Both the position numbers and the translations under genes were made by a program. A stretch of 45,193 nucleotides of DNA, from assembly GCA_020444505.1 (NCBI GenBank), contig JAHLKU010000020.1:1-45193 (forward strand), given 5' to 3'. This DNA comes from Actinomycetota bacterium (GTDB lineage Bacteria > Actinomycetota > Acidimicrobiia > Spongiisociales > UBA11373). Below the pieces are notes generated by a model. That model made no database searches. It was not told where the DNA came from and was given only the letters and a program-made list of their open reading frames with translations. Of this stretch, positions 35,202 through 37,716 are shown piece after piece. How positions within the stretch are numbered: position 1 is the stretch's first letter; each line of letters starts with the position of its first letter.

Positions 35202-37145
35202 TCAGGGCGCCTCGTCGATGGTGCCGCCGCCCACCGGCGTGCCGGGGACCACCGGTCCGACGGCCTCCGCCGTCGCCGTGGTGGTGGCGGCCGCCCAGTC
35301 GACGTACACCTTGTTCTTGAGGGTGCTGCTGTTCCGGTAGAAGGCGATGCCCAGGGTGCCGGTGGAGAACGACGGGTCGGTGCCCTGCCACACCAGGACG
35401 TCGTTGATGGAGAACGCCAGGTCGTCGCCGACGGCCACCACCTTCAGGTCGTTCCACTTCGAGGCGATGGCCGGGTGCGACGTCCACTCCGCCAGCCACT
35501 CGGTGGTGCCGCCCGGGTCCACGCGGAACACCGAGAAGCGGCCGTCCTTGGTGTACTGGAACACGTACGACTTCTCCCACAGGATGCCCACCCGCTTCTT
35601 GTGGTTGCCGCGGATGACGATCCGGTTGGCGCACGTGTCGCACCCCACCCGGCGCATCCGCACCTCGTAGGTGACGTCGCCGAACCCGCCGAGGTTGTAC
35701 ATGGTGAGTGCCCCGATGTCGAGCTTGCCCTTGGTCCAGTAGTAGCCGCGGGCGTCGATCTTCCAGTACCCGATGAGCTTCTTCCACCCCGGCGCATCGG
35801 CGGTGAAGTCGGTGAGGAAGTCCTCGCCGATCCTGGTGGAGCGGTGGGCGGCGACGAGGGGGGCGGTCTCGGTGAGGACCCGGTAGTTCTCGGCGTCCAC
35901 CCCGCCGGCGGGGGCGCCGGTTTCCACCTCCACGTTGAGGTTCGGGTTCGACCACCAGTCCAGGCGCTGGCAGTAGTCGTACGGGTCGGTGTCAGCGCAG
36001 AGGTCGTTGTACGCCATGATCGTGCGCCAGCGGTCGTCGGTGTTCACCCACCCGTGCCCGTACTGGTAGGGGGTCGTGTAGGGGTCGACGTACTGGTCGT
36101 GCCTGGCGCCCTGCAGGTGGCCGAACTCGTGGCCGAACGAGTAGTACCCGGTGGCGCAGTCGCGGGCGGTCACCTGGTAGGCGTAGTCGGCCGACGGCAG
36201 GATGCCGGCCGCCAGGCCGCAGTAGGCCCCGCCGTCGAGGACGATCAGCGCCACCATGTCGGCGCCGTAGGTGTTGCGGAGTTTCGACACCTTCTTCAGG
36301 CCGGTGGCCCCGGTGTACAGGTTGGGCAGGTCGAGGAACAGGTCGCCGGTCTCGACGTAGGGCACCTCCTCGGTGTGCACCAGGCGCAACTGCACCTGCG
36401 CCCCCGCCTTGTCGTAGGCGTGGTTGGTCTCGGTCATCGCCAGGAGGAGGAGTGCCTTCATCGACGCGGTGGTGCCGTAGCCGTCGGGCCCTTGGCGGGC
36501 GTCGGCGGTGTACACCACCAGCACGTCGATCACCTCGACCCCTCCGTCGGCCGCCGCCTCGCGCGTGGTCGGGCCGGGCAGGTCGGCCGTGCCCGCCGTG
36601 TCGGCGAGCGAGTCCACGCCGGCGGTGCCGTCGGCGGCATCAGCCTCCGGCGGGTGGTCGGTGAACGCCGACTGGTCCACCTCGACGATGCGGTACAGGC
36701 CGCCGCCGGCCGGCGACGCCTCGAAGACGCCCTCCGGCGAGGCCACGTGCAGGGCCATGGCCCCGTCGGCCACCGCCAGGTAGAAGTACCCGGCGCCCAC
36801 GCCGTCCAGCGTGCCCGCCCACGACACACCGCCGTTGAGTTGGTCGGTGGTGACGTCGGTGACGAGGCCGGTGTAGGAGGCGTCGGGGAACAGGTCCAGC
36901 GAGACGGCCGGCAGCGAGGCCCGCCCCCGCGGCGCCCCGTCGGCGAACAGCACGTCGAGGTCCGCCGCCGCCAGGCGCTGGCGGGCCACATGCGCCTGGG
37001 GCGGGAGGTCGGCGCGGCCCTGCGCCGCCGGGGTGAACAGCGACGGGGCGGCGGGCGTCTCGGCGCCCGCGCCGCCCATCGGGGCGAGCGCGGCCAGCAT
37101 CAGCATGGTCAGCAGCACGACGGCCGCCCGGATCCTCGTCGTCAT
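35202..37145 (-). CDS. Secreted metzincin zinc metalloprotease (647 aa)
   Basis: Signal peptide (about 1-28). An N-terminal domain (about 60-165) with LDVLFADG, LDLFPD, ASPEGVFEA and YRIVEVDQSAF is followed by a linker and a reprolysin-like catalytic domain (about 200-440) with HEFGHLQGARHD (zinc His x3 plus Glu, about 336-347) and the Met-turn TIMAYND. Then comes a concanavalin-like beta domain (about 445-620) with paired cysteines CDTC. N-terminal-domain cleavage would activate it in the usual metzincin manner, though no clear Cys switch is seen in that domain. ATG with GGGAAGGA upstream. The next gene upstream encodes a free copy of its N-terminal domain. Confidence 0.92.
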   Translation of the reverse strand: MTTRIRAAVVLLTMLMLAALAPMGGAGAETPAAPSLFTPAAQGRADLPPQAHVARQRLAAADLDVLFADGAPRGRASLPAVSLDLFPDASYTGLVTDVTTDQLNGGVSWAGTLDGVGAGYFYLAVADGAMALHVASPEGVFEASPAGGGLYRIVEVDQSAFTDHPPEADAADGTAGVDSLADTAGTADLPGPTTREAAADGGVEVIDVLVVYTADARQGPDGYGTTASMKALLLLAMTETNHAYDKAGAQVQLRLVHTEEVPYVETGDLFLDLPNLYTGATGLKKVSKLRNTYGADMVALIVLDGGAYCGLAAGILPSADYAYQVTARDCATGYYSFGHEFGHLQGARHDQYVDPYTTPYQYGHGWVNTDDRWRTIMAYNDLCADTDPYDYCQRLDWWSNPNLNVEVETGAPAGGVDAENYRVLTETAPLVAAHRSTRIGEDFLTDFTADAPGWKKLIGYWKIDARGYYWTKGKLDIGALTMYNLGGFGDVTYEVRMRRVGCDTCANRIVIRGNHKKRVGILWEKSYVFQYTKDGRFSVFRVDPGGTTEWLAEWTSHPAIASKWNDLKVVAVGDDLAFSINDVLVWQGTDPSFSTGTLGIAFYRNSSTLKNKVYVDWAAATTTATAEAVGPVVPGTPVGGGTIDEAP

Positions 37146-37176
37146 GGCTGCGTCCTTCCCGTGGGCTCGTGCATGA

Positions 37177-37716
37177 TCATCCCTCGCGCCCCGCCATCGC
37201 CGACTGGTCCACCTCGATCGCGCGGTACACGTCGCCGCCGGCGCGCGACACCTCGTAGATGCCGGCTGGGCTGGCGAAGTGGGCGATGAACACCCCGGCG
37301 GTGGTGAGCATCGTGAAGCTGCTCATGTCGACGCCGTCCAGGTACCCGGTCCAGGTGTACCCGTCGCCGTTGTCGGCCACCCCGGTGATCACGGCGGTGA
37401 CGGTGAGGTCGGGGAACAGGCCCACCTCGATGCCGCCCGAGCCGAGCGGGGCGCCGCCGTCGTCGAACAGCACGTCGAGGGCCACGGTGACGGCGCGCTG
37501 GCGGGCGGCGTCGGGCACCTCGGAGATCTCCGCCGCCGACGGCGCCAGCAGCCCTCCGGGGGCCGCGGTGGTCGGAGGGTCGGTGGCGGCGGTGGTGGCC
37601 GCCGTCCCCGCGCCGTCGCTGCAGGCGGCGGTCAGCGCCAGCAGGGCGGCGAGGACCGCGGCGCGCCGCCGCGCTCCCCGGGTGTGGCGACCGTGCATGT
37701 GGGTCCCATCGGTCAT
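37177..37716 (-). CDS. Lipoprotein homologous to the protease N-terminal domain (179 aa)
   Basis: Lipobox LTAAC (Cys32 counted from the first ATG) and a Thr/Pro linker, then a 110-residue domain aligning with protease residues about 60-165: LDVLFDDG, GLFPDLTVT, TWTGYLDGVDMSSF, ASPAGIYEVSRAGG, YRAIEVDQSAM. It thus equals a stand-alone N-terminal domain tethered to the membrane, with no protease part. It sits just upstream of the protease in the same direction (31 bases between coding regions), so the two are probably cotranscribed and may interact. The first ATG (37716) or ATG 37698 may start it. No sequence for a known inhibitor family was recognised. Confidence 0.85.
   Translation of the reverse strand: MTDGTHMHGRHTRGARRRAAVLAALLALTAACSDGAGTAATTAATDPPTTAAPGGLLAPSAAEISEVPDAARQRAVTVALDVLFDDGGAPLGSGGIEVGLFPDLTVTAVITGVADNGDGYTWTGYLDGVDMSSFTMLTTAGVFIAHFASPAGIYEVSRAGGDVYRAIEVDQSAMAGREG

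Follow-up and report, generated by a model that had tools for sequence, protein, structure and literature searches.

A prodomain-like lipoprotein encoded upstream of a metzincin protease

The window, a stretch of 45,193 nucleotides from an Actinomycetota bacterium of the class Acidimicrobiia, encodes a 179-aa lipoprotein which, as judged from sequence comparison, is a free-standing duplicate of the N-terminal prodomain of the adjacent metzincin protease. The chances appear about even, better than for any other reading, that this lipid-anchored prodomain binds and plugs its sister protease at the cell surface, keeping the enzyme inactive. The contig that makes up the window, C34, belongs to a genome of 2.54 Mb (97.6% complete). 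Both open reading frames were recovered on the minus strand where the preliminary description had placed them, and their GC at the third codon position, 0.96 and 0.98, is what coding sequence of this genome usually shows. The features of the locus are the following:

37177..37716, minus strand: gene of the 179-aa lipoprotein, a free-standing protein resembling the prodomain (BLASTP, codon-position GC)
37621..37623, minus strand: predicted lipidated Cys32 of the lipobox LTAAC (sequence motif; lipobox-like Cys in nine other lipoproteins)
37198..37548, minus strand: prodomain-like all-beta domain of the lipoprotein, residues 57-173 (AlphaFold2 pLDDT >90 over most of it; Foldseek match to PDB 6o38)
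37180..37197, minus strand: C-terminal tail of the lipoprotein, MAGREG before the stop (consensus PGGEG before the stop), candidate active-site plug (tail comparison)
37146..37176, minus strand: 31-bp intergenic gap with SD-like GGAAGGA 5' of the protease start (sequence)
35202..37145, minus strand: gene of a secreted reprolysin-like metzincin, 647 aa (ORF, Pfam, NCBIfam)
37062..37145, minus strand: signal peptide for Sec export of the protease, residues ~1-28 (prediction by eye)
36648..37040, minus strand: prodomain of the protease in cis, residues ~36-166, Cys-free (BLASTP, alignment)
35835..36536, minus strand: metzincin catalytic domain, about residues 204-437 (Pfam Reprolysin_5/_4/_3; NCBIfam Mep72 model, partial match)
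36099..36131, minus strand: zinc site HEFGHLQGARH (sequence motif)
35310..35828, minus strand: C-terminal beta-sandwich domain of the protease (matched weakly by 3keto-disac_hyd and levanase chains)

The lipoprotein gene lies upstream of the protease gene on the same strand. The two genes are likely to be cotranscribed, since the 31 bp between them form a short gap with an SD-like sequence before the protease and no terminator-like site in its sequence, and since the homologous genes in G010 (L047) overlap by 4 bp.

Homology of the lipoprotein with the protease prodomain

The lipoprotein was aligned with the N-terminal domain of the protease by BLASTP with 56 identities over 134 positions (42%; 80.9 bits, E 2e-22). 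The Smith-Waterman score of the pair was 222, while shuffled sequences reached a mean of 41 (sd 7.2, max 76, n=2000), which places the similarity 25 SD beyond the shuffles. The homology put forward in the preliminary description is real, and its extent in the protease, from residue ~30 to 161, is slightly longer than the ~60-165 given there; the absence of a catalytic domain from the 179-aa protein was likewise confirmed. The lipoprotein consists of a signal peptide with the predicted lipobox typical of bacterial lipoproteins, a short Ala/Thr-rich linker following Cys32, the domain and the stop. LspA is encoded in the same genome. No Pfam or NCBIfam family scored above its cut-off for the lipoprotein, and a PDB sequence search gave no significant chain, that of CpaB included, for the lipoprotein or for the domain profile (A2), a result that weighs against the plug reading.

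The protease is composed of a Sec signal, the prodomain, a linker, a reprolysin-type catalytic domain and a C-terminal beta-sandwich. The motif HExxHxxGxxH, present as HEFGHLQGARH, the Met-turn IMAY and matches above cut-off to Pfam Reprolysin_5, _4 and _3 identify it as a bacterial reprolysin-like metzincin. The NCBIfam Mep72 model matched the catalytic domain partially, with 90.5 bits against a model cut-off of 645. Weak domain matches make carbohydrate binding by the beta-sandwich possible. Cysteine was absent from every cis prodomain examined, and the cysteine switch of M12B proteases is therefore not present. A full-length AlphaFold model of the protease, built from a four-sequence alignment, had a mean pLDDT of 43.7, too poor for reading the packing of the prodomain against the active site. 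With a cis prodomain already on the protease, a second copy acting as a plug needs an extra reason.

Predicted structure of the lipoprotein

The AlphaFold model of the lipoprotein was confident over residues 60-173. Confidence was lower in the C-terminal tail (about 69 for the last block), and this counts against the tail as a plug. The best Foldseek matches of the model were six chains of PDB 6o38 (E 4e-4 to 2e-3, probability 1.00, TM (target) 0.58-0.68), followed by ADAM17 prodomain entries, which were non-significant (E about 0.1). The entry 6o38 is the CpaA-CpaB complex of Acinetobacter. Judged from their length of 117-130 residues, the matched chains would be CpaB, and on this identification the modelled domain has the CpaB fold.

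The same fold match could point to a protein which is mainly a folding and secretion chaperone, comparable to CpaB or a lipase foldase, binding the unfolded exported protease, folding it and releasing it, with inhibition being incidental. The dependence of CpaA on cpaB for its secretion (PMC4713064) and also for its stability (PMC7542363) agrees with such a role. It is nevertheless rather unlikely here, as the protease retains its own prodomain, which would normally take on this task, and some 20 further proteases carrying this prodomain manage without the lipoprotein.

Distribution of the gene pair

The pair was found at 10 loci, including the window, in Actinomycetota (Acidimicrobiia) and Chloroflexota. 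Besides the window these are L047 and L046 (96-bp gap), and in Chloroflexota L081, L082, L083, L133, L134, L137 and L138. The lipoprotein gene was upstream of the protease gene on the same strand in all ten, and a lipobox-like Cys was present in 10/10 lipoproteins. Conservation of the pair had been chosen beforehand as one test on which the idea could fail, and the pair proved to be kept across both phyla. The other explanation named in advance, a common binding domain occurring in unrelated proteins, did not hold: in the loci read, all profile matches were metzincin proteases or small lipoproteins beside one, with a further match (L084) being a frame-split protease. A general ligand-binding domain was rejected, every match read being a metzincin or the partner of one.

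The pair is rare. It was found in 2/395 genomes of the class Acidimicrobiia, in 3/249 genomes of a Chloroflexota class sample and in 6/350 genomes of an order sample which overlaps the latter. Any match to the domain was obtained in 17/249 and 26/350 genomes of these two samples, the cis domain being commoner than the pair. In most cases a protease with this prodomain is not accompanied by a lipoprotein, which speaks against the plug reading. Neighbouring genes differed among the loci checked. The pair in the window is flanked by an HrpA-like helicase and an antibiotic-biosynthesis monooxygenase, L046 by TetR and RelA/SpoT, L047 by a heavy-metal ATPase, and L081-L083 by other genes; one downstream neighbour is common to L081 and L048, the contig of the latter beginning within the prodomain.

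Several candidates were set aside. A 135-aa 'standalone' open reading frame in G901 was rejected as a partner, being the prodomain of a frame-split protease. At this locus (L084, G901:C145, 3767-5436) the prodomain and the catalytic domain lie in two overlapping frames, probably as a result of a frameshift. Plasmid matches in tblastn were relatives outside the pair only, and a Pseudoalteromonas relative was left aside, its neighbour being a divergently transcribed secreted protein with no detected link. On the Rhizobium leguminosarum plasmid pRLN3 (L080, 1744-4885), the gene of a Mep72-like M12 protease is immediately preceded by one for a matrixin-family protease. In G006 (L043, G006:C449, 1468-3262), a protease whose prodomain is related starts with a lipobox signal of its own, so that the enzyme itself, and no partner, bears the anchor.

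At L134 (G1407:C52, 3310-11886), a 9-kb stretch holds one lipoprotein gene and the genes of three metzincins, paralogues of the same clade, suggesting that a single lipoprotein partner could serve several enzymes. This arrangement, together with a lipid anchor on the lipoprotein and none on the protease, would also suit a surface tether or activator, which would hold the protease via prodomain-like contacts or compete with its cis prodomain while leaving the active site unblocked. We regard such a role as quite improbable; it leaves unexplained the conserved short tail of the lipoproteins and their absence beside a dead protease, both described below.

Origin of the free-standing form

A tree of 41 domains was calculated, and an earlier tree of 31 rows agreed with it. 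Eight lipoproteins formed one clade (support 90/81) and the 12 cis prodomains of the matching protease clade formed one group (99/98), the two being joined at 100/100. This joint support of lipoproteins beside cis prodomains indicates that the duplicate stayed with the protease. The lipoprotein of L138 was sister to the prodomain of its own protease (95/90) and that of L083 was placed elsewhere in the tree, outside the main lipoprotein clade. Well-supported branches force at least three changes of label between free and cis, and the free form therefore probably arose more than once. Resolution inside the groups was weak. The pair may have been transferred between phyla.

In nearly all lipoproteins only a short tail, usually PGGEG, follows the domain before the stop. 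PGGEG, PGGRD or PGGGQD ends 7/8 of the main-clade lipoproteins, and the lipoprotein of the window ends in AGREG; outside this clade, L083 ends in FPPD and L138 has a longer tail. One position at the junction is Gly in all eight main-clade lipoproteins and Asp in all 12 cis prodomains.

The tandem position adjoining the source domain is also what a duplication product devoid of distinct function would show. Such a product is very improbable: it is disfavoured by the tree, in which the split is old (jointly supported clade with a separate lipoprotein clade), and by the retention of the lipoprotein in two phyla with its invariant lipobox-like Cys and conserved tail.

A lineage with an inactive protease

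Two near-identical genomes, G1358 (L136, G1358:C1, 2235-4196) and G1395 (L135, G1395:C91, 939-2900), carry pseudoprotease genes of the main cis clade, in which HQFGHLQGARD replaces HExxHxxGxxH and IMGE replaces IMAY. The catalytic Glu and the third zinc His are lost. These proteins are nested within the main clade with moderate support (85/71). The region upstream of the G1358 gene is intact, with a divergent gene as neighbour and no lipoprotein, and no other match to the domain profile was obtained anywhere in the G1358 genome. Among main-clade proteases whose upstream region is complete, those of this lineage alone have no lipoprotein. Loss of the partner together with catalysis is predicted for an inhibitor, unlike a foldase: a dead enzyme must still fold, yet this lineage lacks the lipoprotein. 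Sequence comparison in this single lineage thus favours an inhibitor over a pure folding role. Two near-identical genomes count as one event, which weakens the argument for the plug. The rest of the pseudoprotease is intact in both genomes and suggests that a non-catalytic role was kept.

Proposed mode of action

A free prodomain encoded beside its enzyme represents a direct test of how bacterial reprolysin-like proteases, lacking a cysteine switch, spare the cell that produces them, and would offer a genetically encoded specific inhibitor.

The proposed sequence of events starts with the duplication of the prodomain of the adjacent metzincin, whose copy would have become membrane-anchored as a lipoprotein. 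After export, the lipoprotein would be lipidated and reside at the cytoplasmic membrane, on its outer face. There it would bind the catalytic domain of a newly exported or prematurely activated protease through the surface that the cis prodomain also uses, and the active-site cleft would be filled by the C-terminal tail of the lipoprotein, which is short and acidic. The protease would stay inactive beside the producing cell until release. Binding in trans, plugging by the tail, inhibition and the place where the lipoprotein acts are what we infer from sequences and models. A tethered prodomain acting in trans had already been proposed in the preliminary description, and the match to 6o38, the weak match to the ADAM17 prodomain, the tail and the dead-protease exception all lend it support.

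Comparison with known systems

The preliminary description knew of no named system with this layout; two comparable ones exist, CpaA/CpaB (PMC7542363, PMC4713064) and Mep72/BamI (PMC4334185). In Acinetobacter, the secreted metzincin CpaA has as its partner CpaB, a chaperone anchored in the membrane and encoded by the adjacent gene (PMC7542363, PMC4713064). The C-terminal tail of CpaB blocks the active site of CpaA and its anchor gives retention (PMC7542363); once the anchor is removed, the CpaA-CpaB complex is secreted (PMC4713064, PMC7542363). The lipoprotein, also encoded adjacent to a secreted metzincin, shares with CpaB the N-terminal membrane anchor, an exported soluble domain of the same predicted fold, the metzincin client and the C-terminal tail. 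It differs in its anchor, a lipobox Cys instead of a transmembrane helix, and in gene order, cpaB being downstream of cpaA. The client here retains a cis prodomain of the partner's family, an observation that concerns this client alone. As sequence homology to CpaB was not found in the PDB search and the anchor is of another type, membership of the CpaB family is not claimed. CpaB serves a type II secretion system. A Pfam search for Secretin in the genome of the window gave one partial match, to the last 60 residues of a 468-aa lipoprotein-like open reading frame (E 8e-19). This frame (L102, contig C51, 8400-9806, minus strand) is unexpected in an actinobacterial genome.

Mep72 and BamI of Pseudomonas aeruginosa are a cotranscribed metzincin-inhibitor pair (PMC4334185). 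BamI binds Mep72 and relieves its toxicity; its gene is cotranscribed with that of Mep72 and lies upstream of it at a distance of 78 bp, and Mep72 has carbohydrate-binding modules at its C-terminus (PMC4334185, PMC4222646). The Mep72 model matches the catalytic domain of the protease studied here in part and below the model cut-off. BamI is not described as a lipoprotein and was set against the lipoprotein here by description only. The catalytic domain of Mep72 starts at residue 27, which leaves no prodomain comparable to that of the protease studied here.

The cis prodomains of bacterial reprolysin-like (M12-type) proteases are the same domain as the lipoprotein and sequence-homologous to it, but are covalently joined to the catalytic domain and carry the invariant junction Asp where main-clade lipoproteins have Gly. 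ADAM/adamalysin prodomains such as that of ADAM17 occupy the same position before a metzincin domain and show weak structural similarity, whereas here neither a cysteine switch nor a Pfam propeptide match is present. Lipase-specific foldases (Lif/LipB) have a lipase as client and do not stem from a prodomain of that client. By description only, they resemble the lipoprotein as membrane-anchored partners encoded beside a secreted enzyme (PMC4713064).

By analogy, the working principle resembles that of CpaA/CpaB and Mep72/BamI. The lipid anchor, the retained cis prodomain, the repeated origins and the phyla concerned appear to be new within the literature searched, which stopped short of most subscription journals. 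It is possible, and proposed here tentatively, that bacterial reprolysin-like proteases have recurrently used free prodomains with a lipid anchor for self-protection, these having arisen by at least three duplications and being kept with an active protease and dropped with a dead one. CpaB would then share the fold as a strongly diverged member, with chaperone and prodomain forming one family, and on this finding known chaperones, CpaB among them, may descend from prodomains.
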